Shown here: piece after piece, positions 8,423 through 42,665 of the stretch | Numbering within the stretch: the stretch's first letter is position 1 | Layout: every line of letters begins with the position of its first letter | Assembly (NCBI GenBank): GCA_028283145.1 | Contig: JAPYNY010000024.1 | Span: forward strand, 1-46,064 | Reading direction: 5' to 3' | DNA from: Candidatus Hopanoidivorans cymbastelae | GTDB lineage: Bacteria > Actinomycetota > Acidimicrobiia > Acidimicrobiales > Hopanoidiivorantaceae | Length of the DNA: 46,064 nucleotides | Translations under genes and position numbers: made by a program | The notes under the pieces: generated by a model | The model's database searches: none | What the model saw: only the letters and a program-made list of their open reading frames with translations | Told to the model about the DNA's origin: nothing

Positions 8423-12111
<3,689 letters not shown>

Positions 12112-12225: not shown

Positions 12226-13218
12226 TCATCCAGCGAAAACAGTTGGACTTGCATAGCTCAACCGCTTCTTCATGATCTCTACAGCCTCGGAGTTATTGTC
12301 AATCAAGACCGCTTTGCGGTTGTGCCGCACCGCTGCTTCGCCCGTGGTGCCGCTGCCAGCAAAAAAATCCAAAACCCGCTCTTTAGGGTTGGAGTGCACG
12401 GTGATGATCCGGTTTAGAATCGCAATTGGTTTTTGGGTCGGGTAGCCCGTCTTTTCTTTTCCGCTGGGGCTCACGATGGTATTCCACCAGACATCTGTGG
12501 GCGTTTTGCCCCTGGCTGCTTTCTCAGCCCCAACCAATTCAGGTGCCATATAGGGAATGCGGTCTATGTCTTCGTAGCGGTAGGTGTAGCACTTGGGATC
12601 CTTGACATACCAAAAGATGGTGTCATGCTTGGCAGACCAACGTTTTTTCGTGCGAGCTCCGTAGTCATAAGCCCAGATGATTTCGTTCATGAATGAATTA
12701 CGCCCAAAGATCTGGTCAAGTTCAATCTTGCAATAATGTGCCTCCCGGTAGTCAATATGAAGAAAAAAAGAGCCGTGTGGCGCCAACAATCTATAGGCTT
12801 CCTCCAACCGCGGTCTCAGAAAATTGAGGAAGTCGTCAAACGCATCCTCAAAGTGGTATGAACCCGTCTTGACGCTGCGATACCGCTTGCCTTTGAATCC
12901 AGCCCGGTCGCCATTGTCGTCTCTTGTGGTTTGCATCAACTCTCGGGTTTGAACTTTTCCCGTGTTGAAAGGGGGGTCAATATAAATCAACTCAAACGAC
13001 CCGCCTGGAAAATTTTTAGTGACCTTCAGGTTGTCGCCCAGATATATTTCAAGATCGCCGAAAGCTGGCGAGTGTGGGGTGTCGGAGCGCGGGCGCAAGG
13101 TATCGGAGTGTGGGGTGTCGGAGCGCGGGCGCAAAGTGTCGGAGTGTGGGGTGTCGGAGTGCAAGGGCAAGGCGTCGGACTGGGGGATCGTCAGTGCTTG
13201 TGAGTGCGAGTGTTCCAT
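12226..13218 (-). CDS. Site-specific DNA methyltransferase, beta class (N6-adenine or N4-cytosine)
   Basis: 330 residues. Catalytic motif IV DPPF (81-84) comes before the SAM-binding motif I FAGSGTT (286-292), the order of beta-class amino-methyltransferases, with the target-recognition region between them. GYPTQKP lies just before motif I, as usual in this class. The first 50 residues are a Ser/Asp/Thr/His/Pro repeat (unit SDTPHSDTLRPR) unrelated to the enzyme fold. No restriction endonuclease lies beside it, so it is an orphan methylase, perhaps epigenetic or cell-cycle related as known for CcrM, another beta-class enzyme. The target sequence cannot be read from the protein. Confidence 0.9.
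   Translation of the reverse strand: MEHSHSQALTIPQSDALPLHSDTPHSDTLRPRSDTPHSDTLRPRSDTPHSPAFGDLEIYLGDNLKVTKNFPGGSFELIYIDPPFNTGKVQTRELMQTTRDDNGDRAGFKGKRYRSVKTGSYHFEDAFDDFLNFLRPRLEEAYRLLAPHGSFFLHIDYREAHYCKIELDQIFGRNSFMNEIIWAYDYGARTKKRWSAKHDTIFWYVKDPKCYTYRYEDIDRIPYMAPELVGAEKAARGKTPTDVWWNTIVSPSGKEKTGYPTQKPIAILNRIITVHSNPKERVLDFFAGSGTTGEAAVRHNRKAVLIDNNSEAVEIMKKRLSYASPTVFAG
13070..13177 (-). repeat. Three 36-bp in-frame tandem units in the methyltransferase gene
   Basis: Units at 13070-13105, 13106-13141 and 13142-13177; the third is the most diverged. On the minus strand they encode SDTPHSDTLRPR-like units ahead of the catalytic domain. Unit length is divisible by three, so slippage would change tail length and keep the frame. 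Confidence 0.85.
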
Positions 13219-13257: not shown

Positions 13258-13713
13258 TCAAGCCGCGTTGAAGCACCAGTTGACTTGGCGACTGGAAGAC
13301 ACCCCTTCGGGTTGTGGGTAGAACTCAACCACAACGCAGTTACGCTCGGGCTGTAATTGCTCTAGGGTCTGGCCGTCGCCGAATTGGTAGATCAGATTGT
13401 TGGTTCCCCGGCTGAACTGCCATTCTTCTTCAGGGATTTCAACTCCGTTGATTCGAAAAGAGGCAATCACAAATCGGGGGCTGTCCACCAAGTCAATCCC
13501 CACGCTGCGTTGAACCAGCACCTCGGCCCCTTCATCCGGAATAAGCCGCTCCACCGCCGGGTCTAGACCCGGCCCGTCATCTCCCTCGCGAGCCAGCACC
13601 GCCAAGGTTATGGCTACCACTCCTCCCACCGCCACCACCACGGCAATCAACAAGGCTGCCCGGCTGGAAAGTCGCTGAAAGAACTTGATGTTTCTGGGAT
13701 TGTTTTCGGGCAT
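13258..13713 (-). CDS. Single-pass membrane protein of unknown function
   Basis: About 151 residues from the ATG at 13713; an upstream in-frame start at 13779 would add 22 residues. A short polar, basic N-terminus is followed by one strong transmembrane helix (AALLIAVVVAVGGVVAITLAVLA). The C-terminal domain of about 110 residues would be extracytoplasmic and contains FRINGVEIPEEEWQF and two Cys that could form a disulfide. I do not recognise the family. It shares the strand with the downstream methyltransferase, 39 bp away, and diverges from the PASTA pseudokinase. Confidence 0.7.
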   Translation of the reverse strand: MPENNPRNIKFFQRLSSRAALLIAVVVAVGGVVAITLAVLAREGDDGPGLDPAVERLIPDEGAEVLVQRSVGIDLVDSPRFVIASFRINGVEIPEEEWQFSRGTNNLIYQFGDGQTLEQLQPERNCVVVEFYPQPEGVSSSRQVNWCFNAA

Positions 13714-13907
13714 CAAATCTGGCGTATCAAAAGAGACAATGTCAAAAACCAATTTTAAGCTTACGACACTGAGAGCCAAAATTAAAGAAATGCCCAGATG
13801 CCATAGTGCCCGCCCCTAGCAGCTATAACCTGAATTCAGGGACGATTCCGCGGCCCCTTCAGGCTGACAGAGACCTTCAGGAAAAGCCAGTAAAGCCAGT
13901 ATAAAAG

Positions 13908-15947
13908 ATGCCAAACGTCGGAGAAATTTTCGCGCAGAGATACCTGCTCACAGCCCTTATAGGGCAGCGCGACACAGGGGAGGTCTATTGGGCTGAAGAC
14001 ACCGCCCTGGGGCGCCCGGTCGCCATCAAGATTCTCAGCCCGGAGCTGGCCCGCGAAGGCGATTTCCTGAGGCGTTTCCGTTCGGAGACACAAGCCGCGG
14101 CCCGCCTCTCACACGCCAACATCGTCTCCTACTACGACTGGGGCAATGAGGGCGGCCACCCGTTTGTGGTGTCGGAGTTGTGCTTGGGCGGCAGCTTGCG
14201 CGACATCATCGATTCGGGGGTCAGACTGACGCCCGCCCAAGCCGCGCAGGTGGGTCTGGGTGTGTCAGAAGGGCTGAAGCACGCACACGATGAGGGCTTG
14301 ATCCACGGTGGCATCGCCCCCAGCAACATTTTGTTTGACGCGGACGGCAGGGTCAAGATAACCGATTTCGCGCTGGCGATCCTTCATGCGGGGACGTCCC
14401 TGCCCAGCTTTCACGACCGCATATTCGGCCCCACTTTCTACGCCGCCCCCGAAGAAATAGAAAACAGCGAGCTCACTGAAAAGGCAGACGTGTATGCCTT
14501 GGCGGTGGTGCTGGTTGAAGCGGTCATGGGGGCCTATCCTTTTGTGGGGGAGACTACGCTCAGCGTGCTATGGGAGCGGTTGTTCACTCAGCTGCCCACT
14601 CCACCTGAGTTGTTGGGTCTGGCTGCCCCCATCGCCAAGGCCGGTGCCATGAAGCCAGCCGACCGACTGACGACTGAAGAGTTTTCAGACCAGTTGCGAG
14701 AGTTGGCCGAAGCCATGCCCAGCCCCGACCCGCTGCCGCTAGTGCCGCTGCCGCAGCCCCATGCGGGGGCAAAAGTCTTGTCGTCGGGTGACGTGGCGGC
14801 GGGCGCAGGGGTGGCTGGCGCACCCGCAGGCGAAGCCAAAAGCACTGCTGGTTCCGCCGTCGTCCCCAGCAGCCCCAAAACCCGTGGAATTTTCCGAAAG
14901 TCTCCCAAGCAGGGAGCTGGCCAGCTCCAAACTCGTCACCAGTCCCAAACTCGCAAGCACTCCAAAGCCCCCACCTTGTCAAGGCGGGTAACCGCCAGGG
15001 AGTTGTGGGTTTCAATTGTGGCTGTGGTCGTGATTGCCGTGGCTGGAGTTGTTGGTTTTCTCGTATTCAGCGGTGAAGCCACGCAAGAGCGCACGCTGCC
15101 CGATTTTGTGGGGCAGACTTGGGAAGACGCCCTGGATGAAATCAACGGCAACTGGCCCGTGCGTCGCTATGAGTTGCGTAGAGACGGCACTTCAGTGGGC
15201 GAAATCCTGACGCAATACCCAGAATCGGGGCAAACCTTGGCCGCAGGTGAGCAGTTGACCCTCACGGTCTCCTTGGGCGATGAGCTAGTCAGGTTGCCCG
15301 GCGACATCATTGGCTTGCCCACCAATGTGGTGGCCCTGCGGCTGTCGGAATTGGGCTTGTCTTTCGGCGAAGTAACCGAGGTGCCTGATGCTGTCAACGC
15401 TGCCGGCATCGTGCTGGCTATTGATGAGCCCCTGCTGGACGTCCCGTCTGGCAGCCAGGTGGATCTGGTTGTCTCTAAAGGCCCAGTTCAGTTGACAGTG
15501 CCGTTGAACTTGCTGGGCAAAGATATTGCAGAAGTAACTGAGAGCTTGACGGAAGCGGGTTTTGTGGTGGTGGAACAACGCATTTATGATGATCAGACGG
15601 AACCGGGGCAAATCCTGGTAGTGACCCCTGATTCAGGCACAGTTGTATCTGCTGGCAGCGAACTGATCATTGTGGTTTCGGACGGGCCCAAACCTGTACC
15701 CGACCTTAAGGGTTTGACTTTGGGCGAGGTGCGCGAACTGCTGGAGTCTGAAGGGTTTTGCTTGGACAGCCAGGCGATAGACGGCACCGACCTGAGCAGT
15801 TATGAAGACAGCGACATCGTGAGTAACAGCGTGCCGCCTGCAGGTTTGCCATTGGCTAGTCTGGAGGCTGATTCAGAGCCAGATTCAGATTCGCAGGAGG
15901 AGTCCGAGACCCAGGAGGAGCCCTGCGTGAGGCTGCTTTTTGAGTAG
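13908..15947 (+). CDS. PASTA-domain Ser/Thr kinase homologue, predicted pseudokinase
   Basis: 679 residues with PknB architecture: kinase domain (about 12-270), a Pro/Ala/Lys-rich linker, one transmembrane helix (about 364-388) and four extracellular PASTA repeats (from about 396 to 645), then an acidic tail. PASTA repeats bind peptidoglycan fragments. The ATP-anchoring Lys41 (VAIK) and Asn140 remain. The catalytic loop reads HGGIAPSN where active kinases have HRDxKxxN, so the catalytic Asp and the Lys are both lost. DFG is DFA (153-155) and the glycine loop is degenerate (IGQRDTGEV). Phosphotransfer is therefore unlikely; a scaffold or sensor role is inferred. gatC follows after 26 bp. Confidence 0.9.
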   Translation: MPNVGEIFAQRYLLTALIGQRDTGEVYWAEDTALGRPVAIKILSPELAREGDFLRRFRSETQAAARLSHANIVSYYDWGNEGGHPFVVSELCLGGSLRDIIDSGVRLTPAQAAQVGLGVSEGLKHAHDEGLIHGGIAPSNILFDADGRVKITDFALAILHAGTSLPSFHDRIFGPTFYAAPEEIENSELTEKADVYALAVVLVEAVMGAYPFVGETTLSVLWERLFTQLPTPPELLGLAAPIAKAGAMKPADRLTTEEFSDQLRELAEAMPSPDPLPLVPLPQPHAGAKVLSSGDVAAGAGVAGAPAGEAKSTAGSAVVPSSPKTRGIFRKSPKQGAGQLQTRHQSQTRKHSKAPTLSRRVTARELWVSIVAVVVIAVAGVVGFLVFSGEATQERTLPDFVGQTWEDALDEINGNWPVRRYELRRDGTSVGEILTQYPESGQTLAAGEQLTLTVSLGDELVRLPGDIIGLPTNVVALRLSELGLSFGEVTEVPDAVNAAGIVLAIDEPLLDVPSGSQVDLVVSKGPVQLTVPLNLLGKDIAEVTESLTEAGFVVVEQRIYDDQTEPGQILVVTPDSGTVVSAGSELIIVVSDGPKPVPDLKGLTLGEVRELLESEGFCLDSQAIDGTDLSSYEDSDIVSNSVPPAGLPLASLEADSEPDSDSQEESETQEEPCVRLLFE

Positions 15948-15973: not shown

Positions 15974-16321
15974 TTGACTGATACTGTACCAACTGAGCTT
16001 ACGCCTATGCCCAGCGACCCACCCCCAGACAAGATAACCACCGAGCAGGTGGCACACGTAGCTCATCTGGCGCGGCTGGAAGTCACTCCCCAGGAGCAGG
16101 AGATGTTCGCTGAGCAGTTGTCGGACGTCTTGGCTTATGGCCGTGAAATGAACGCCTTGGATTTGGACGATGTGTCGCCTACTTCGCACCCACTGCCTCT
16201 GAGCAATGTCTTGCGTGAAGATGTAGTTGGTGAAGTCAGCAACCGCGAAGAGGTGCTGGCTGAAGCCCCCGAAGCTGAGTCAGATAAGTTTTGCGTGCCT
16301 CCCGTGCTGGAGGCAAATTAG
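15974..16321 (+). CDS. gatC: Asp-tRNA(Asn)/Glu-tRNA(Gln) amidotransferase subunit C
   Basis: GatC is the small subunit of GatCAB, which converts misacylated Glu-tRNA(Gln) and Asp-tRNA(Asn) to the correct amide forms; it wraps between GatA and GatB. The family pattern is clear: VAHVAHLARLEVTPQE, then LDDVSPTSHPLPL, then LREDVV, with a C-terminal FCVPPVLE. Length is 115 residues from the TTG at 15974, or 104 from the ATG at 16007, both within range. gatA and gatB are downstream on the same strand but separated by minus-strand insertions, so the usual gatCAB operon is broken up. Confidence 0.92.
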   Translation: MTDTVPTELTPMPSDPPPDKITTEQVAHVAHLARLEVTPQEQEMFAEQLSDVLAYGREMNALDLDDVSPTSHPLPLSNVLREDVVGEVSNREEVLAEAPEAESDKFCVPPVLEAN

Positions 16322-16351
16322 CTTTAGCATGGCTGCTGTTGCCTTTTGCTA

Positions 16352-16568
16352 TTAAAGGTCTGCTGCCTTTATGCCTGTCTTCTTCATAAGGCTTGACTGT
16401 ATTCCGATAGGCAAGGTTTTATTGGTATGAACCGGAACTGACACTGAATTCCAGATGTTTCAGATGCTCTGGAGGCTTGTAAAACCTATGACTTCCGCGA
16501 GTTCTGACATATATCCATCCGTGCTTCTCCAAAATTTTGCAAAACTCTTTTCCGCTGACCCTCTTCAT
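16352..16568 (-). pseudogene. hicA: Frameshifted hicA toxin gene
   Basis: Reading the minus strand from the ATG at 16568 gives a typical HicA start (MKRVSGKEFCKILEKHGW, then RTRGSHRFYKPPE), including the catalytic His in GSHR. That frame stops at 16419 after 49 residues. The standard HicA C-terminus (SVSVPVHTNKTLPIGIQSS to IKAADL) is present in another frame and ends at 16352. The whole span is 217 bp, one more than a multiple of three, consistent with a single-base indel near 16440-16460. HicA normally cleaves mRNA. The start overlaps the hicB stop as ATGA. Either the toxin is inactivated or the base call is wrong. Confidence 0.8.
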
Positions 16569-16978
16569 ACACTTACTTTTTTATAGCTTGAGGGTTCTGG
16601 AGAACCGCTTTGAATATAATCCACGAAATAGGTAACGTCTTTAGGTGCATATGTTTGCTTAGTCTTATTTTCCAATTCGGGTTTGATTTCCAAAAACGTT
16701 TTGATTGTCAAAAAATTGTGAAGTGCTGCGAGCCAATAATCTCCCCCCTCCCCCTCTTCTTCCATATCCGCTATGGAGGGTTTTTTCGGAAAACTGTCCA
16801 ACTCGCCGTTGTTTAGCATTTCAATTGAGCACTCAATGAAAAGCTCGGCTGCTTCGGTTATGTTCCGAAGAGCGTCTTCAAACGTTTCGCCCCAGGAGTA
16901 ACACCCTCCAAGGCCAGGCACTTCGGCGCAAAAAACGTCTTCTTCAGCGTCTGGTCGGATAGCTACTATTAAATCCAA
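16565..16978 (-). CDS. hicB: HicB-family antitoxin
   Basis: 137 residues. The degraded RNase-H-like HicB fold is recognisable from AEVPGLGGCYSWGETFEDAL and the following ITEAAELFIE helix. HicB proteins bind and neutralise HicA and often repress their own promoter. The second half (after about residue 75) is diverged and lacks an obvious HTH or ribbon-helix-helix motif. The start is a TTG at 16978 with AGGAGA 2-3 nt upstream. hicB precedes the frameshifted hicA with a 4-nt overlap, so this is one translationally coupled module inserted between gatC and gatA. Confidence 0.85.
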   Translation of the reverse strand: MDLIVAIRPDAEEDVFCAEVPGLGGCYSWGETFEDALRNITEAAELFIECSIEMLNNGELDSFPKKPSIADMEEEGEGGDYWLAALHNFLTIKTFLEIKPELENKTKQTYAPKDVTYFVDYIQSGSPEPSSYKKVSV

Positions 16979-17126
16979 TGTCTCCTGCCTTTCTTCTTGT
17001 TACGGCTGCACTCGTTAATGGAATTATACGAGCTATCAAACACAAAAAACAAACAAAATCCAGCTCCGCCCGCCCAGAACTCCGCTAGCCTCCAGATGCT
17101 AGGTGGATGTCCAGCACACAGGTTTG

Positions 17127-18017
17127 TCAGTTGCTCGCCCGCTCAGACTCGCCCCGGCTCTTGCGCTGGGGCACAGCTTCTAGATAGTGCTCGTAGAACA
17201 CCACGTCGGTATCTGGATGGAAAAATTCGGCATAATGACGTCTAACCCTTTCAAAGACATCGGGTTTGTCAAAGAAATAAACCTCCAAGCGCTCAATCTC
17301 AAACCCCAGTGAAACCAGCAGATGACGCAACCTGAGCGGCGAATAGAACACCTGTTCGATTTGCTGTTTCTGCTCAAAATAGGAGCTTCGCTGGATGTCA
17401 ATCTGGGAAAACACTTCATCTGGGCTTCGGATTAGAGACAAGAGGTCGGCCACCGCAAAGATATTCGGGAAAAATCCTATGAGTCTGCCTTCGGGCGAGA
17501 TGACCCGTCTGAAACTCTCCAGCATCTGGAAGTTTTGGTTGTGTTGTGAAGCCAGCACCGAGTTGATGACGATGATGAGGTCGTATTTGGGGCTGTCGGG
17601 CAGGTTGGTGGAGTCCAAAACGTGATAGGACACCCTCTCAAGCGGGGCTGTGCTTTGCCCCTGGAGAGTCAGTTGCTCCTTGAGCCTGGCGAATTCTGAG
17701 GTTGCTAGCTGGATGACGTCTGTAAAATCACCGCAGTGAATCTGAACACCAGGAAAGTTCTGGGCGATGGCGACTTCCAATTTGACCCTCGTCCCACAGC
17801 CAGGAATCAGGATTTTGACTTCGTCCAGGCTTTTGCTTTGGCTGACAGTGCTGAGATGCGATTCTATGTTTGCCAGCAGGTCGTCCAGCACCGACTGGCA
17901 GTCGGTAAGGCTCAAAATATCATAGCCACTGCTGTGTTCGCTTATCCAATAGCGCTCCTCAGCGGTGATGTCCATTGTGTGATTTGAATCGGGAATGTCC
18001 CAGATGTCTTTTGCCAT
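17127..18017 (-). CDS. Class I SAM-dependent methyltransferase
   Basis: 296 residues. SAM-binding motif I is KILIPGCGTRVKLE (about 69-82). The acidic position after strand 2 is HCGDFTD, motif IV is YDLIIVINSVL, and post-motif LESFRRVISPEGRLIGFFP matches the usual strand-5 region. These identify the fold but not the substrate. The N-terminal 60 residues (AEERYWISEHSSGYDIL) and the C-terminal 80 would carry specificity. GGGAGA lies 5-6 nt ahead of the ATG. It sits upstream of hicB on the same strand, about 150 bp away, within the block separating gatC from gatA. Confidence 0.8.
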   Translation of the reverse strand: MAKDIWDIPDSNHTMDITAEERYWISEHSSGYDILSLTDCQSVLDDLLANIESHLSTVSQSKSLDEVKILIPGCGTRVKLEVAIAQNFPGVQIHCGDFTDVIQLATSEFARLKEQLTLQGQSTAPLERVSYHVLDSTNLPDSPKYDLIIVINSVLASQHNQNFQMLESFRRVISPEGRLIGFFPNIFAVADLLSLIRSPDEVFSQIDIQRSSYFEQKQQIEQVFYSPLRLRHLLVSLGFEIERLEVYFFDKPDVFERVRRHYAEFFHPDTDVVFYEHYLEAVPQRKSRGESERASN

Positions 18018-18197
18018 TTATTCTCCCTGCTTGCTTTATGCGATTGGGACCGGTTTGGATAAGCGTGCTGCCCTTTTTCATAAATCTAACTGAGGTAGGC
18101 AGGGAGGCGGTCAGAGAGCCATCTTTCGGGAAGCGTTCAATTGCTAGCTAGCATCAAAATCTTAGAAACAAACTTGGACCAAGAGAATTGGGAAAGC

Positions 18198-34816: not shown

Positions 34817-36366
34817 CGACAGCAGCTGTCCTTCAGCCCACAGGGGTGCTAGCCCAGACTTTCGTTGAGGCCACCCCGTCAGTCAACTGGGTAGCTCTGA
34901 TTCCCTACCTTGTCTTGATTGGCGGCGGGCTGATGCTGCTGACGATAATGTCGCTGGCTGGTCGCTGGCTGCCGGGCTGGTTTTCGTCTGGCTACACCGC
35001 TTTGGTTGGAGTCGGCACGCTGGGGTCAGCTATCGGCATCTGGGTCTATATTGGCGAAGAAGGCCCGTCCGCCACGCTGTCTGGAGTGGTCGGCATTGAC
35101 CGATTTTCTGTCTTCGTCATAGCTGTGCTGGGCGCGGTTGTGGCTCTGGTGGCAACGCTAGCGCACGACTACATCCGCCGTGAAAATCTGTGGGGCAATG
35201 AGATTTATGTGCTGTTGATGCTGTCGGCTGCGGGCGGGGCGATTATGGCCAGCGCCAATGACTTGATTGTGTTGTTCTTGGGCTTGGAAGTGCTGTCTAT
35301 CGCTGCCTACGTGCTGGCTGCCATATATTTGCGCCGTGCGGCTTCGCTGGAGGCAGGCATGAAATATTTCGTGCTGGGAGCGTTTTCCTCGGCTTTCTTG
35401 CTGTATGGGATTGCGTTGATTTACGGCGCCACCGGCTCCACCAAGCTCGCCAGCATCGCTGAGTTTTTGGAGGCGGGGTCGCTGGCGGAAGACGGCTTGT
35501 TGCTGGGTGGTTTTGCGCTGATGCTGGTGGGGATGTTCTTCAAGGTGGCAGCCGTGCCGTTCCACGCCTGGACGCCCGATGTCTATCAAGGCGCGCCAAC
35601 GCCTGTGGTGGGTTACATGGCAGCGGGGGTGAAGATTGCGGGGTTCGCGGCTTTGCTGCGGGTGTTCGTGGGGGCGTTCGGCTCCTACGGCAGCGACTGG
35701 CAGCCGATTGTCTATGCCATTGCAATCGTGACCATGCTGGTGGGTTCTGTGGCTGCCATTGCGCAAGGGGACGTCAAGCGAATGCTGGCGTATTCCTCTA
35801 TTAGCCATGCCGGGTTTGTGCTGGTAGCGGTGGAAGCGAACACTGCGGACGGCACGGCTGCGGCGCTGTTCTACTTGGCGGCCTATGCGATGATAGCCGT
35901 GGGGAGCTTTGCGGTGGTTTCGGTAGTGGCTGGAGCGGGGGATGCCCGCACAAGCATTGAGGATTATCGTGGTTTGGCAAGCCGACACCCCGTGCTGAGT
36001 GCTATGCTAATGGTGATGTTGCTAGCCCAGGCAGGAGTGCCTTTTACCTCTGGATTCTTCGCCAAGTTCTTCGTGATAAGCGCAGCCGTTGACGCTAGGT
36101 CGTACTGGCTGGCTATCACAGCGATGGTGCTAGCAGTGGTTGCTGCGTTCATCTACCTGCGCTTGCTGGTGGCAATGTATTTGCCAGGGGACGCTCAGGG
36201 GGAAAACACCAGCCCCGCAGAAGCCAAACTCAACATCACCACAACTTCCAGAGAACGACTCGTCATAGCAGCCTGCGCTAGCTTCACCGTAGCCTTTGGT
36301 ATCATGCCGGGAGTGTTGCATGAGCTAGCAGGGGATGCTATAACCAACCTTACACTATCACCATGA
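34813..36366 (+). CDS. nuoN: NADH-quinone oxidoreductase subunit N
   Basis: Third antiporter-like subunit, 517 residues. Diagnostic segments are LIVLFLGLEVLSIAAYVLAA, FKVAAVPFHAWTPDVYQGAP and VKRMLAYSSISHAGFVLVA. This is the natural end of a nuo operon. Its stop codon TGA (36364-36366) overlaps the ATG of an unrelated, AT-rich GHKL ATPase gene, so that gene is probably cotranscribed from the nuo promoter. Confidence 0.96.
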   Translation: MTTAAVLQPTGVLAQTFVEATPSVNWVALIPYLVLIGGGLMLLTIMSLAGRWLPGWFSSGYTALVGVGTLGSAIGIWVYIGEEGPSATLSGVVGIDRFSVFVIAVLGAVVALVATLAHDYIRRENLWGNEIYVLLMLSAAGGAIMASANDLIVLFLGLEVLSIAAYVLAAIYLRRAASLEAGMKYFVLGAFSSAFLLYGIALIYGATGSTKLASIAEFLEAGSLAEDGLLLGGFALMLVGMFFKVAAVPFHAWTPDVYQGAPTPVVGYMAAGVKIAGFAALLRVFVGAFGSYGSDWQPIVYAIAIVTMLVGSVAAIAQGDVKRMLAYSSISHAGFVLVAVEANTADGTAAALFYLAAYAMIAVGSFAVVSVVAGAGDARTSIEDYRGLASRHPVLSAMLMVMLLAQAGVPFTSGFFAKFFVISAAVDARSYWLAITAMVLAVVAAFIYLRLLVAMYLPGDAQGENTSPAEAKLNITTTSRERLVIAACASFTVAFGIMPGVLHELAGDAITNLTLSP

Positions 36367-38315
36367 TGCACAGCAAGCCAACCTGGAAATTTCCAGAGGA
36401 ATCACAAGGCGTTGAAGGCATGGGTTTTGATCACCCAGCTTTAACAATATTTAGCGGAGATAGAAATACTACTCTTTTTAGAGAGTGTTTGCAGAATTCA
36501 CTGGATGCGGGAGTTAAGGGAAATGAAGTCACTGTGGAGATCAAATTGGAGCAATTGTCTGCAGAGTTGTTTGACCCAGAAAGTTTAATTGAAGCGCTTA
36601 ATTCAAGCTGCAAGTCTGATTGGAATAATGATAGTGGAAGAAGTCAGTTCAAAGAGGCAATTAAGTTGTTTAAGCAGAGAACAATTCCCACTCTTTCGAT
36701 TACTGATGTAAATACTATAGGAGCAGCTGATGAAAAAACCCAAGGTAGAAAAATTAGTCCTTGGCAAACAATGGTTAAGTCCTCTGGGTTTTCACAAAAA
36801 TTTGATGGCAGTTTAGGATCTTATGGATTAGGAAAGCATGCTTGTTTTAATGTTGGGCCTTCACGTACTGTTTTATATTCAACTTGCTATTTAAATCAGA
36901 GCGGTGGATATTCAAGAAGATTTTTAGGTAGAACAATACTGATTACTCATTTTAAGAAAAATGAGCAACAGCATTCATATAATGGGTATTTAGGGAATGA
37001 TTGTCAAGCACTAGCTGATGATGAAATACCACAACAGTTCATGATGGATACACCGGGAACAAAAATTTTAATTCCTGGCTATAGAGTTCATGATATAGAA
37101 AGTGAAGAAAATTGGGAATTGCGTGCTTTAAACGTAGCTGCAGAAAATTTTTTCTTTGCTATAATTCATGGAAAGTTGGGTTTGATAATTGGTGAAAATC
37201 TAGTCCTTACGAAGGATTCTATTATTGAAGGTGGTGAATGTTGGGAATTAATTAAAAGTGAAAGAACAAGAAACTATATTAGAATTGCAAGTGAGACCCC
37301 TAAAGCCACTACCTATATTGAAGGAATAGGAGACATTGAATTACGTATAAGTGTTGTAAATGATGATAGCATTTCTGATAGACGAGCTTTAGCATTAGTT
37401 CGAAGTCCGGGATTGAAAATAGCAGATGATCCAAAGAGTCTAGGTCCAGTAAATAGAAGTATGCCAAAGGACTGGAATCCATTTGTGGCCATAATTGCTT
37501 GTACACCACGAAAAGATGAGATAGATTGGATGCTAAAAGAATGCGAAGCTCCTTGTCACGATAGTATAGCATTGGATCATATTCGAACTGCTATGAATAT
37601 TCAAAAGCACAAGGATGCAGCAAAAATATTTAAAGAATTTCGTTCATGGATTTATGATAATATTAAAGAATATGCTGCTCCAAATCGAATTACTGTGATG
37701 CCTGACACCCCAGTTTTAAAGAGGTTAGGATTATTTATTGAAGATGATATTCAAGGAGAGCGATTGAAATTATCAGATTTAAGGCCAGTTGATCGAGCTC
37801 CAAGGGAAAGTATCTACTCAAATAATAACCAAAATTCAGATGAACCAACTGAAATAGATTCTGAAGATGGAGAAGAAAATTTTATTCCCTTAGATGAGGA
37901 AAGTAATGGGGGAACACGGCCCGGTACAGACGTTTCAGAAGGAAAAACAAAAGTTATTATGAAGAAGCGGTATGAAACAGAAGCAATTTTTGTACCAATA
38001 TATGATGAAAATGGAAAAAAATTAACTCATAAACTAAGAGCACACTTTACTTTGCCAGCTAGATTAAAAGATGAAGAACTTATTTTTGAATTTTTATCCA
38101 TTGGTGAAGATGAAAAGGGCTATAGGCCAACAATAAGATTTATTGAATGTAAAGATGTTAGTTTAAGGAGTAAGCAAAATATATTTTATGTTCCTAAGAG
38201 TTTATGTGAAGAAAATAAACGGTTATCGGTTGATATTTCGCTTAATGAGGCTATAGGCACTTCAACTTTTAATCTTAGACATATAATCCAGACTAAAGGT
38301 GAAGGCCGACTTTAA
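36363..38315 (+). CDS. GHKL-fold ATPase, first gene of an AT-rich cassette
   Basis: 650 residues. The N-terminal ATPase motifs are clear: N-box FRECLQNSLDA (about 39-49), an Asp motif SITDVNT (112-118) and the GxxGxG lid GSLGSYGLGKHACF (149-162). Together they place it in the Hsp90/MutL/MORC/histidine-kinase superfamily; there is no histidine phosphorylation site. A Glu/Asp-rich stretch (about 500-535) precedes the C-terminal domain. MORC/MutL-like ATPases of this kind are known from prokaryotic restriction-like gene clusters, so a defence role is plausible. Codon use is strongly AT-biased against the nuo genes. The ATG overlaps the nuoN stop; the second codon (36366) or an ATG at 36420 are alternatives. 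Confidence 0.75.
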   Translation: MMHSKPTWKFPEESQGVEGMGFDHPALTIFSGDRNTTLFRECLQNSLDAGVKGNEVTVEIKLEQLSAELFDPESLIEALNSSCKSDWNNDSGRSQFKEAIKLFKQRTIPTLSITDVNTIGAADEKTQGRKISPWQTMVKSSGFSQKFDGSLGSYGLGKHACFNVGPSRTVLYSTCYLNQSGGYSRRFLGRTILITHFKKNEQQHSYNGYLGNDCQALADDEIPQQFMMDTPGTKILIPGYRVHDIESEENWELRALNVAAENFFFAIIHGKLGLIIGENLVLTKDSIIEGGECWELIKSERTRNYIRIASETPKATTYIEGIGDIELRISVVNDDSISDRRALALVRSPGLKIADDPKSLGPVNRSMPKDWNPFVAIIACTPRKDEIDWMLKECEAPCHDSIALDHIRTAMNIQKHKDAAKIFKEFRSWIYDNIKEYAAPNRITVMPDTPVLKRLGLFIEDDIQGERLKLSDLRPVDRAPRESIYSNNNQNSDEPTEIDSEDGEENFIPLDEESNGGTRPGTDVSEGKTKVIMKKRYETEAIFVPIYDENGKKLTHKLRAHFTLPARLKDEELIFEFLSIGEDEKGYRPTIRFIECKDVSLRSKQNIFYVPKSLCEENKRLSVDISLNEAIGTSTFNLRHIIQTKGEGRL

Positions 38316-38351
38316 TTTTCAGTAATTGTATAATAATAGGAGCAAATTTTA

Positions 38352-39287
38352 ATGAGATATGCACCAAATCGTGGATTTCTTTACCCTGTCCTAGGCCAGA
38401 GAGAATTTTATTATCCAAGCAAGACTTTTTCTGTTAATCTTGATTGGGATGTTTCTGATCAAAACATTGTTTTTTGGGCAGACTTTGATTTAAATGTTAA
38501 AGCAATCAATGATTTTATTGACGAGCAAAAAGCAATTTGTATTATCTGGGCATATTGCAAGACAACTTCCTTTCGTGAAATCTACAGGCCAATTGAAAAA
38601 AATTTAAGACGTGTAGAGGGTTCAATTTCAATTCATGATGTCAGGGGAACAATACAATTTCATCCCTCTATATTGGCTGTAGAGGACATAATTTTTTCTT
38701 TAGAGGAGGCAAATAAAGACTTTTTGGAGCAAGGTGATTTTGTAGAAATTAGCAAAGGCAGACCGCTTGCTGTTCATAAACCAAGCAATGGGGAGCTAGA
38801 CGTTGATTCTGATAGAGCTACACATGACATTTTTCAGCTTATGGATGAAGAAAATTTAGAGGATGGAACTTGGGAAATAGTTGCAAACACAAGTGAAACA
38901 ATCATTTTTCTTAAGGCAAATCAAAAGACCAGGAATGAATTTAAGCAAACCTATGGAAAGCAATTTCTTGACATACCTACGTTATACCTTTCAGCTATGG
39001 TGGAAGCTCTAAATGAGTTTTTGCGTAATCCATATATTGATGGTGAGGAGAGACCTGACTCAACAAGATGGACAGGTGTAATTTGGAATAAACTTGACAA
39101 ACTTGGAATTAAGGTAAAATCAGGTTATGACGGTGCAAATTTTGTTAAACATGATGATAACAATTCTTTTGTTACTCCATTCTGGGTGGCTCAGAAGCTT
39201 TTAGAATCACCGTTGTGTGATTACAATAAATTTTTGGAGAAGATACAGGTCAATCAAGAGCAAGGAACAAATAATGACACAGAATAA
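38352..39287 (+). CDS. Hypothetical protein, second gene of the AT-rich cassette
   Basis: 311 residues; I do not recognise the family. The N-terminus (APNRGFLYPVLGQREFYYP) and the following alternating hydrophobic pattern suggest a beta-rich N-terminal domain. The C-terminal half is helical and acidic. No nuclease, helicase or methylase motif is convincing. It follows the GHKL gene after 36 bp, with AATAGGAGC about 9 nt before the ATG, and overlaps the third gene by 14 bp. The same low-GC codon use marks it as part of one acquired unit. Confidence 0.7.
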   Translation: MRYAPNRGFLYPVLGQREFYYPSKTFSVNLDWDVSDQNIVFWADFDLNVKAINDFIDEQKAICIIWAYCKTTSFREIYRPIEKNLRRVEGSISIHDVRGTIQFHPSILAVEDIIFSLEEANKDFLEQGDFVEISKGRPLAVHKPSNGELDVDSDRATHDIFQLMDEENLEDGTWEIVANTSETIIFLKANQKTRNEFKQTYGKQFLDIPTLYLSAMVEALNEFLRNPYIDGEERPDSTRWTGVIWNKLDKLGIKVKSGYDGANFVKHDDNNSFVTPFWVAQKLLESPLCDYNKFLEKIQVNQEQGTNNDTE

Positions 39288-40050
39288 AATTCATCCTCTA
39301 ACTGATGCAGGCTATAATTTGCTTATAGATGTCGCTAGGAATTCTCCTAATTTATTTTTTGAGCCGTCCTTAAGTCAAATAACTTCAAAGTTCTTTGAAG
39401 TAGCTGAGGAAAGGAATGAAAAGAATCTTTTCAATTTTGAAAAATTTTGGGTTCCTTTATTTCCTTTGGATCATCTATCAAATGATGTTGTTCCGGGTAA
39501 TAAATTAGATGCTGACCATACCCGTTATATTAGAAATGCTTTGCCCACAATTACTCCGGCTGATATGTCAGACAGAAGGGTTTTGGCATCAATTTGCTGT
39601 TTTAATTTAGTTGGATACATAAATACACGCTGGAGCTTAAGCAAACATTTTAGATCGTCAAGTAGAGCTGATCAAATTAAATTTGTTGAATCACATTGGA
39701 TGGGAAATATTGGAAACATAAAAATATCAAATGCAGCAGCTAGAATTTGGTGGCTAGGTGAATTTGCAGCTAGAGCATCCAAGTTTTCAAATAATTCTTT
39801 TGATGAATTGTTAGAGATTATGGCTGAAAATGCGAGATTATACGATCAAATGTCAGACCGATTATTTATGGCTTCAGATAAAATTCGAGCTATGATTTTG
39901 GATATTATGATCGATAAAGGTATAAGTGAAGCAAAAGATATTGACTTTATCATGACCCAGCTTAATAAAATGGCTGGTGGAATTAGTTTGGATATATTAA
40001 GTAAAGAAGATTTAAAGGAAAAAGTTACGGCGGCCCTCCCCCCAAAATGA
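39274..40050 (+). CDS. Hypothetical protein, third gene of the AT-rich cassette
   Basis: 258 residues from the ATG at 39274; a longer in-frame reading from 39217 lies inside the previous gene. Entirely soluble and largely helical. The segment ISNAAARIWWLGEFAARAS and its position recall DUF6339-type proteins that accompany GHKL ATPases in restriction-like clusters; I hold that with low confidence. No catalytic motif is visible. Its stop codon overlaps the start of the PP-loop gene (ATGA at 40047-40050). The base composition changes to GC-rich within the last few codons. Confidence 0.68.
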   Translation: MTQNKIHPLTDAGYNLLIDVARNSPNLFFEPSLSQITSKFFEVAEERNEKNLFNFEKFWVPLFPLDHLSNDVVPGNKLDADHTRYIRNALPTITPADMSDRRVLASICCFNLVGYINTRWSLSKHFRSSSRADQIKFVESHWMGNIGNIKISNAAARIWWLGEFAARASKFSNNSFDELLEIMAENARLYDQMSDRLFMASDKIRAMILDIMIDKGISEAKDIDFIMTQLNKMAGGISLDILSKEDLKEKVTAALPPK

Positions 40051-40910
40051 GGAGCCGCCCCCCAGACCCTGCTTTACGGGTATTATCGCTGGGTGGCGGC
40101 ACTCAGTCCACAGTTTTAGCTCTACTGGCCGAGCATGATTTTTTTGAGCACAAGCCTGATGTAGCCATTTTTGCCGACACCGGCTGGGAGCCACCTGCGG
40201 TTTATAAAAATATTGAATGGTTGCGGTCGGTTATCTCGTTTCCCATTGAAACTGTTAGCATTGGTAGGTCTTTGCGAGAAGATGTAATAGCTGGTGTAAA
40301 TACAAGTGGGTCGCCATGGTTAACTATTCCGACCTTTCTGTCTGCTCCAGATGGAACTCCTGCGGGTATGAACTGGCGCCAATGTACTACACATTACAAA
40401 ATCAAGCCCATCAAAGAGCAGGTGCGTCGGCTGCTGGGGCTTTCACCTCGTTCGCCTGTGGCTTACTCCACCTCTATGGAGATGTGGTTGGGCATCACCA
40501 TTGACGAAGCCGAGAGGATGCGAGTCTCGCCCGACCCGTGGATTGTCAATTGTTATCCGCTGATTGACCTTGGCATGTCACGCGAGGACTGCATTGAGTG
40601 GTTTCATGGCGAGTATCCGGGGCGGGGATTGCCCCGCTCGGCTTGTGTCGGCTGTCCTTATCATTCGGCTTCCAGTTGGGTGCAGATGCGTGAAACCGAC
40701 AAAACTTCATTTGACGATGCGGTGGCGATAGACAAGCTGCTGCGCTCGCCCGATCACAACGCCACATCCATGTTTCGCAACAGGGTGTTTCTGCATTCTC
40801 GCCGGCTGCCCTTGGAAGAAGCAGTGGCCCTAGACACAGCGGAGTTAGCCGCCACCGCCAGCGAAGACGAACACTGGGGTAACGAATGCGCTGGAATCTG
40901 CGGCACTTGA
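40047..40910 (+). CDS. PAPS-reductase-like PP-loop protein
   Basis: 287 residues. The PP-loop SLGGGTQST (14-22) marks the adenine-nucleotide alpha-hydrolase fold used by PAPS reductases, tRNA thiolases and DndC. Also present are FADTGWEPP (42-50), QCTTHYKIKP (112-121), CVGCPYHS (200-207) and a C-terminal CAGICG, so four or five Cys could hold a metal or Fe-S centre. This family is scattered on phages and mobile elements and its reaction is unknown. It lacks the flanking sulfate-assimilation genes expected for true PAPS reductase. Composition matches the chromosome, not the three AT-rich genes it is coupled to. Confidence 0.78.
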   Translation: MRSRPPDPALRVLSLGGGTQSTVLALLAEHDFFEHKPDVAIFADTGWEPPAVYKNIEWLRSVISFPIETVSIGRSLREDVIAGVNTSGSPWLTIPTFLSAPDGTPAGMNWRQCTTHYKIKPIKEQVRRLLGLSPRSPVAYSTSMEMWLGITIDEAERMRVSPDPWIVNCYPLIDLGMSREDCIEWFHGEYPGRGLPRSACVGCPYHSASSWVQMRETDKTSFDDAVAIDKLLRSPDHNATSMFRNRVFLHSRRLPLEEAVALDTAELAATASEDEHWGNECAGICGT

Positions 40911-41085
40911 GGGTTGGCACCTGAGGTTGGGGTTGGGGGGGTGTGCCAAGGCAATGCCCAATGCCTGAACATATAACATACCCTGAGCATGCCTAGGGGG
41001 TAGCAGGCAGCACCCCCATCCCAAACACTCCTGCACCAAAGATGCTGAAGATGCTGTGCAACACCCCCTGTCTATATTCAGGGCT

Positions 41086-41589
41086 ATGGAAATCGCAGAC
41101 TTCAATCCATATCTATCGCCCGCTGTTTTGGCAATGGGGGTCATCATCGGTTGGGTTTTTGCCCTGCGCGCCTAGGCACGGGAGAAAATTCTGGGCGCCC
41201 GAGACAGCATATGCTCGCTGGCTGAAATACTGTTGGAGGAAAACCCAGAAGAGCCAGACAAGATTGGGGCGGAGGCGTATTTTGAACGCCCAAGATTCGC
41301 AACGTGGCGGAAGTCAAAATGGGATTCAACAGCGGTCATCTGCAACACTGAGACGAAGAAGGCAAAAGTTTCGTTTTTCTTCTCCCGCACAAAGCTAGTC
41401 AGTGAGGCAGCTGATGAAGCTTTCACATCAATCTCGTCCACGCTTGCATTGGATGCTCAGACAAAAAAGGCCATTGAAAACTTTGCTGCTCAATTATCTA
41501 AATCAGAAGAAGGCAAAAGGCGTTTTTGTGTCAAGGGCAATTTGGGCGATTCAACGGTTGTGCTGCTTTTTGTTGTGTTTAAGGCATAA
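41086..41589 (+). pseudogene. Membrane-anchored protein gene split by one in-frame amber codon
   Basis: From the ATG at 41086 the frame encodes 29 residues including a transmembrane helix (LSPAVLAMGVIIGWVFAL), then TAG (41173-41175), then 138 more codons to a TAA at 41589 without another stop. The region after the TAG continues naturally (AREKILGARDSICSLAEIL) into an acidic, helical cytoplasmic domain. TATATT (41073-41078) ends 7 nt before the ATG, the leaderless geometry used elsewhere here. Annotating only the downstream part from a TTG at 41233 would give 118 residues without a ribosome site. Family unknown. Either a nonsense mutation (CAG to TAG would restore it) or readthrough. Confidence 0.6.
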
Positions 41590-41628
41590 TATAGCTACTA
41601 CCTGCTTCAAGAAAGACTTGAGTGAAAA

Positions 41629-41790
41629 ATGCGGAAAAGAAAACGCCAAAGCCAAGTGCCAAAAAATCAAAATCTTGTGCCACCCGGGGGCATCGATTTT
41701 TTTACGGAGGATGGCCGCAAGTTCACACTCGTGCAATACATAATAAGCGACAAGCCTTTGGTGCGCAGCCACACCCGCTGGCCTACGTAA
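41629..41790 (+). CDS. Possible 53-residue basic protein
   Basis: A short open frame with a basic N-terminus (MRKRKRQSQVPK) and a structured-looking core (GIDFFTEDGRKFTLVQYIIS). It follows the amber-interrupted gene by about 40 bp. No ribosome site is obvious and I do not recognise it, so the call rests on sequence quality alone. Confidence 0.3.
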   Translation: MRKRKRQSQVPKNQNLVPPGGIDFFTEDGRKFTLVQYIISDKPLVRSHTRWPT

Positions 41791-41948
41791 GGATTGGGGC
41801 TGCTTGCTGCCCTGTCAGGTGCTCGGCAGGTAGCTTCGCCCCCGCTCAGGGCAACAGCCCTTTCAACTCCAATAACTCCTGAATGGACCAACATATGCTG
41901 CCTGCCTGTGGTGAGGCATGACGGCTACTCGTGTCCGCAGGGCTGAGT

Positions 41949-42665
41949 TCACAACCTTCCGATTAGCTCTTCCAGAGCGTCCAAGAAGCTGGGATCGTAT
42001 TTTTCCTCCACATGCCGCTGGTTCCAAAGCCCCGACTGGCGCACCTTAGATTTGAGGCTGAAGTGTCCGAGCCACTGCGGGGAGGGCGGGTCAAGCGGCG
42101 GCTTTTCGTAGTTGCTGAGCAGGGCGATGGAGTTGCGCTCAATCACTCCACGCAGGCTGTGGCGGCTGGGTGGGTCGTCAATGGCTAGCCAAAGCAGTTC
42201 CATCTCGCCTAGCACAGCACTCACTGCCCGCTCTATCGGCTGCTCAGCTTTGCGGATTGTTTTTGTGGCTGTCTTGCCTGCGTTCCAAGTGGGGCAGATG
42301 TGTTTGTCTCGCTGCATCAGAGCCTCTCCGACTAGTTTGCGAAACACCGACCCACGATGATTCCCGCCCCCTGTGCTGGCTGGTCCACGATGGTTGGACA
42401 GGCGCCCCCAAAGAGTAGAACGGGAATTTTGACTGACAGCGTGCGTGCCGACACGGATGACGCGAGAGCGGGAGCCACTGCTGGGGCTGCTAGTCAGGGT
42501 GTTGCTGCGTTGCTCGTCCGCTTGACGGAAGAAATAAATCCCTCGCTTCGGCCAGTCCATCGCTCCCGTGCAATCTCTGAGCTTGCGTGCCCCACTCAGC
42601 CGCTCTTCCAAGTTGTCTAGGAGATGATAGAACTGGATGAGATGGTCTAGCCGAGACGAAGCCAC
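41949..42665 (-). CDS. GIY-YIG nuclease-family protein
   Basis: 238 residues. The pattern RGIYFFRQADE (about 41-51), RVIRVGTHA (68-76), then TLWGRLSNHRG (84-94) and GNHRGSVFRKL matches a GIY-YIG-like family common in genomic islands. GIY is intact, while the YIG position reads RVG, and Arg in GRLSNHRG would be the usual catalytic Arg. GIY-YIG enzymes cut or nick DNA. Whether this variant is active is uncertain. It is one of three minus-strand genes (with Mrr and an AAA ATPase) forming a defence-like block, but each is separated by 60-160 bp. Confidence 0.75.
   Translation of the reverse strand: MASSRLDHLIQFYHLLDNLEERLSGARKLRDCTGAMDWPKRGIYFFRQADEQRSNTLTSSPSSGSRSRVIRVGTHAVSQNSRSTLWGRLSNHRGPASTGGGNHRGSVFRKLVGEALMQRDKHICPTWNAGKTATKTIRKAEQPIERAVSAVLGEMELLWLAIDDPPSRHSLRGVIERNSIALLSNYEKPPLDPPSPQWLGHFSLKSKVRQSGLWNQRHVEEKYDPSFLDALEELIGRL

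Follow-up and report, generated by a model that had tools for sequence, protein, structure and literature searches.

Architecture and genomic setting

The window, a stretch of 46,064 nucleotides from contig JAPYNY010000024.1 of Candidatus Hopanoidivorans cymbastelae (assembly GCA_028283145.1; genome of 2.33 Mb, ~89% complete), encodes a membrane protein with the domain set of PknB-type kinases, namely a kinase domain, a transmembrane helix and PASTA repeats (Table 1). Pfam detects the Pkinase domain at 130.6 bits (E 8.8e-38) and PASTA at E 1.5e-29; two PASTA stretches pass alone and four repeats can be discerned by eye. The initial annotation had described the ATP lysine, the transmembrane helix and four PASTA repeats as retained, and all are confirmed. 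AlphaFold2 returns a confident kinase fold for the N-terminal domain (mean pLDDT 84.7, pTM 0.85), in which residues 156-173, within the activation segment, are poorly modelled (pLDDT <50). The nearest solved structures are Mycobacterium tuberculosis PknA and PknB, which also lead the sequence search. Matches of the domain to the PADLOC family PD-T4-6 were considered as a sign of a defence role and dismissed, as they reflect the general kinase fold.

Table 1. Features of the PASTA receptor locus in the window
Feature	Coordinates	Strand	Basis
ligA, upstream locus marker	8435..11422	+	Synteny
Divergent neighbour, transmembrane helix and CopC/Ig-like ectodomain	13258..13713	-	Conserved beside the kinase across Acidimicrobiales
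Intergenic region common to the divergent pair	13714..13907	.	
PASTA receptor pseudokinase, 679 aa, ATG start	13908..15947	+	ORF; Pfam Pkinase and PASTA
Pseudokinase domain, ~residues 11-262	13938..14693	+	Pfam; AlphaFold2; nearest solved folds PknA/PknB
Degraded glycine-rich loop, GQRDTGEV for GxGASAxV	13962..13985	+	Alignment
ATP lysine K41 (VAIK), retained	14028..14030	+	Invariant in 162/162 domains
Catalytic loop HGGIA; HRD Arg, HRD Asp and catalytic Lys gone	14304..14318	+	Alignment
Metal-ligand Asn140, retained	14325..14327	+	Alignment
Activation segment, DFA to APE; DFG Gly, TEP and P+1 Thr gone, Asp153 and APE Glu stay	14364..14453	+	
Transmembrane helix, ~residues 368-387	15009..15068	+	Hydrophobicity maximum
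Extracytoplasmic region, four PASTA repeats, Cys pair in the last	15090..15944	+	Pfam PASTA; sequence
gatC, downstream locus marker	15974..16321	+	Pfam; synteny

Catalytically intact orthologues occupy the same locus, with ligA upstream, gatC-gatA downstream and a small membrane-protein gene directly upstream on the opposite strand, so the pseudokinase derives in place from a kinase whose catalytic residues were intact. The divergent neighbour is found at 114 of the 135 locus entries with sufficient upstream sequence (some genomes being counted repeatedly) and beside none of the PknB control loci, and it is kept whether the adjoining kinase is live or dead. It consists of one transmembrane helix and a beta-sandwich for which CopC is the closest structure (Foldseek E 8e-5, 11% identity), and its ectodomain carries a conserved cysteine pair (NC...WCF); a comparison with Pfam and NCBIfam gave no convincing family match. 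This CopC/Ig-like membrane protein is a candidate co-receptor across the order, with live or dead kinases.

Several other features of the window were observed. LigA (995 aa) contains a duplication of residues 551-643 at 773-865 (41% identical), a segment present only once in the 780-aa LigA of the sister species and in the 712-aa LigA of the other genus. Opposite-strand genes for a HicB-like antitoxin and a methyltransferase-like protein (16322-18140) separate gatC from gatA, which adjoin directly in the sister species, and the N6/N4 DNA methylase encoded at 12226-13218, whose N-terminus carries the short repeated peptide SDTPHSDTLRPR, was not seen at the matching place in that species. Directly after nuoL/M/N-like genes is a low-GC island (36363-42665; GC 0.34-0.39 at 36-40 kb) encoding proteins that match the PADLOC candidates PDC-M33A, B and C together with an SspD-like protein, and PDC-M57B on the other strand; it is probably an anti-phage defence island.

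Catalytic residues and their loss within the family

The glycine loop of the window protein reads IGQRDTGEV, HGG occupies residues 133-135 within the catalytic-loop stretch HGGIAPSN, with Ala at 137, and DFA occupies residues 153-155, the metal ligand Asp153 being preserved. The changes first claimed for this protein (HRD to HGG, catalytic-loop Lys to Ala, DFG to DFA and a degraded glycine loop) were thus all found in a residue-by-residue check, to which the loss of the HRD Arg, the activation-loop TEP motif and the P+1 Thr can be added. With the HRD Asp gone, the VAIK Lys and DFG Asp in place and a confidently predicted fold, the protein is, by sequence, a pseudokinase. Nucleotide may still be bound, since Lys41, Glu60, Asn140 and Asp153 remain.

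The six residues Lys, HRD Asp, catalytic Lys, Asn, DFG Asp and DFG Gly are all present in 159 of the 162 distinct kinase domains compared, and the three dead domains come from exactly the three genomes available for the small, uncultured family to which the window belongs (two genera, each genome 83-89% complete). As those residues are intact in the 159 other Acidimicrobiales domains, the catalytic loss goes far beyond chance or misalignment. Whether HGG and DFA are conserved among orthologues had been posed as a question by the initial annotation; the dead state is indeed kept, as HGG/HSG/HLN and DFA/DFA/DFE in the three genomes. The orthologue of the same genus has HSG, Ala at the catalytic Lys position and DFA, and that of the other genus HLN, Ser and DFE with an unrecognizable glycine loop and only ~2 PASTA repeats. 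All three lack G21, R134, D135, K137, G155, the TEP motif, T175 and R177, and all three possess K41, H133, N140, D153, F154, the APE Pro and Glu and the alphaF Asp; the alphaC Glu is retained in two and gone from the third genome. Across the intact clade 84 positions are at least 95% conserved, 43 of which are identical and 16 changed in all three family members. The changed positions make up 12 of the 31 in the active site and activation segment vs 4 of the 53 elsewhere (Fisher p 0.001, a descriptive value only, the active-site set having been picked after the motifs had been seen). Such clustering suggests that phosphotransfer and activation by phosphorylation have been abandoned while nucleotide and metal ligands and the fold have been retained.

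A profile built from the three family members scores them at 407-511 bits among 397 genomes of the order, the next match being at 286, and a profile of the intact orthologues matched 80 loci, many from Acidimicrobiia or Acidimicrobiales; a scan of named genomes using the window protein alone found no relative. In the tree, the three form one clade (SH-aLRT 92) nested within the intact orthologues, with long branches, including that of the family, which leave the exact placement of the clade unsure. Sequencing error is excluded as a source of the losses because a congeneric genome, assembled independently into a single contig, shows them too, and synteny, together with the tree, long-branched as it is, opposes the view that the protein is a paralogue rather than an orthologue. 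At this locus relatives from other families do carry an intact HRD, which the initial annotation had taken as a mark of recent decay, but recent decay itself is opposed by the tree and rejected on the constraint described below. On these comparative grounds, the loss of the phosphotransfer residues is old and fixed within the family, and was followed by strong purifying selection.

Constraint on the dead domain and the live PASTA kinase

A comparison of the genus's two species gives 70% identity (pN 0.193) for the pseudokinase domain and 73% (pN 0.177) for the kinase domain of the live PknB; pN stands in for dN/dS here, as full or near saturation of synonymous sites precludes a ratio for the pseudokinase domain. 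Far more drift is seen in the pseudokinase linker (31% identical) and PASTA region (48%) and, to a comparable degree, in the live PknB outside its kinase domain (41%). The reading frame is open in all three family members. A domain constrained like that of the live PknB is therefore not a dying one, and since its fold has been preserved just as strictly as in the live PASTA kinase, it is probably a non-catalytic partner or scaffold.

The search for an active PknB elsewhere in the genome, as the initial annotation had advised, yielded exactly one intact PASTA kinase. Each of the three family genomes contains exactly two PF00069 kinases, one live and one dead, although further ones may be missed because the genomes are 83-89% complete; other genomes of the order contain 1 to 22. 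The live kinase has intact motifs, its gene adjoins a PP2C phosphatase gene, and it shares with the pseudokinase the same architecture with four PASTA repeats. In the other genus the live PknB appears split, the kinase ORF ending and the transmembrane helix and PASTA region continuing in another frame, which may represent a split gene or an assembly error.

N-lobe dimerization provides allosteric activation of PknD and PknB (review PMC3601408), and because bacterial PASTA kinases are activated by such dimers, a catalysis-free copy bearing the same surface could serve as an allosteric partner. Equivalents of R11, L34 and D77 of the window protein are retained in all three family members. These residues correspond to the N-lobe dimer residues of M. 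tuberculosis PknB (R10, L33 and D76), a retention that is compatible with dimerization and not specific to it because the intact orthologues conserve them as well and many bacterial kinases share them.

Relation to known pseudokinases and possible function

PknB/StkP-type PASTA kinases, as defined by the NCBIfam model NF033483, share the kinase fold, transmembrane helix and extracytoplasmic PASTA repeats of the window protein. In the latter, however, the HRD Asp, catalytic Lys and DFG Gly are replaced by G, A and A, and its score (334.4 bits) falls below the cut-off of 450 bits, as does that of the sister-species pseudokinase (376.2), whereas the live PknB of the window's own genome reaches 574.3. 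Orthologues in other Acidimicrobiales share the ligA/gatC locus, the divergent neighbour and a kinase domain that is ~37-47% identical, but have an intact HRD, catalytic Lys, DFG, TEP and P+1 Thr.

A 2025 review recognizes seven families of bacterial pseudokinases, of which three occur mainly in actinobacteria and several carry a transmembrane helix, and its text ties PASTA repeats to none of them (PMC12599244). ActPs1 is defined by substitution of all three catalytic residues, whereas the window protein has K41 and D153. ActPs2 is characterized by beta3 Lys to Arg, HRD Asp to Asn and a DFG deletion (PMC12599244), unlike the K41, HGG and DFA found here. ActPs3, represented by MviN, has all three motifs fully degraded and an activation-loop deletion (PMC12599244), while the window protein keeps VAIK, the DFG Asp and a full-length activation segment. 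The MviN pseudokinase domain is likewise actinobacterial, membrane-linked and involved in cell-wall control, but has VALT for VAIK and no DFG Asp (PMC12599244, table), where the window protein keeps the Lys, Asn and Asp, and no PASTA repeats are described for it. EssB/YukC is also a transmembrane bacterial pseudokinase with a scaffold role, yet it is a part of the type VII secretion system of Firmicutes, has LDMR for VAIK and is described without PASTA repeats. Since the protein fits none of the ActPs1, ActPs2 or ActPs3 motif patterns and lies below the NF033483 cut-off, it represents a variant not described in the review, a PASTA receptor pseudokinase. The open-access literature searched yielded no paper naming Acidimicrobiia and PASTA kinases together, nor one naming Acidimicrobi- and pseudokinase together.

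The pseudokinase probably serves the live PknB as an allosteric partner or a scaffold. Comparison among relatives shows that a membrane PASTA kinase, intact elsewhere in Acidimicrobiales, shed its phosphotransfer residues a single time, in the family's ancestor, and was retained as a receptor pseudokinase. Its outer PASTA repeats, probably with the CopC/Ig-like protein, would bring it to the sites where peptidoglycan is made, and inside the cell its preserved kinase fold would dock, via the N-lobe dimer surface, on PknB as the sole live PASTA kinase, which it would switch or position while phosphorylating nothing itself. We give about an even chance to this reading, a catalysis-free receptor docking on live PknB. 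The receptor pseudokinase HER3 (ErbB3), which activates its live paralogue HER2 allosterically, is a model for such a mechanism (PMC8889928); it belongs to a eukaryotic receptor tyrosine kinase family, however, and only the mechanism is analogous. The more specific proposal of a bacterial HER3 counterpart, a pseudokinase receptor for peptidoglycan that exerts allosteric gating on the sole live PASTA kinase, descends from an active ancestor at the same locus and has the conserved CopC/Ig-like protein as co-receptor, is tentative.

The main rival to an allosteric partner is a scaffold in the style of MviN-FhaA. In its pure form, which we regard as possible though somewhat unlikely, the cell-wall role would fall to the PASTA ectodomain together with its CopC/Ig-like neighbour, and the pseudokinase domain would be only a docking module for cell-wall proteins or a PknB substrate read by an FHA protein. 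Retention of the divergent membrane partner beside live and dead kinases is in keeping with this, as is a clear FHA protein encoded in each of the three family genomes, and mycobacterial MviN-FhaA provides a precedent in peptidoglycan control (PMC12599244, PMC3601408). A scaffold alone, however, leaves the live-like constraint on the kinase domain amid a drifting linker and PASTA region unexplained, and neither a phosphosite nor an FHA contact was identified in the pseudokinase. Distinctly less probable is a dominant-negative damper, which would lower PknB signalling by forming heterodimers with PknB or competing for the same muropeptides; the architecture equals that of PknB, and with the TEP motif and P+1 Thr gone the pseudokinase cannot itself undergo the usual activation, but the sign of any effect on PknB is not revealed by sequence. 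The presence of Lys41, Asn140 and Asp153 in all three members would also suit a repurposed nucleotide-using enzyme that catalyses another transfer, for which SelO and SidJ are precedents (PMC12599244), or an unconventional kinase like Escherichia coli YegI (known from the title of a paper cited in PMC9674922). This is very improbable given the degraded glycine loop, the missing alphaC Glu in the third genome and a pocket that shows no new conserved catalytic-looking residue. Decay of the gene, which the intact same-locus relatives and the reduced PASTA region in the third genome might suggest, is scarcely credible against open frames in all three members, strong kinase-domain constraint and a state common to two genera.

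Bacterial pseudokinases are almost untested. In this family a live and a dead PASTA kinase coexist in every cell, and the intact ancestral state survives at the same locus in relatives, so that a naturally catalysis-free receptor can be used to probe whether dimerization alone carries the peptidoglycan signal.
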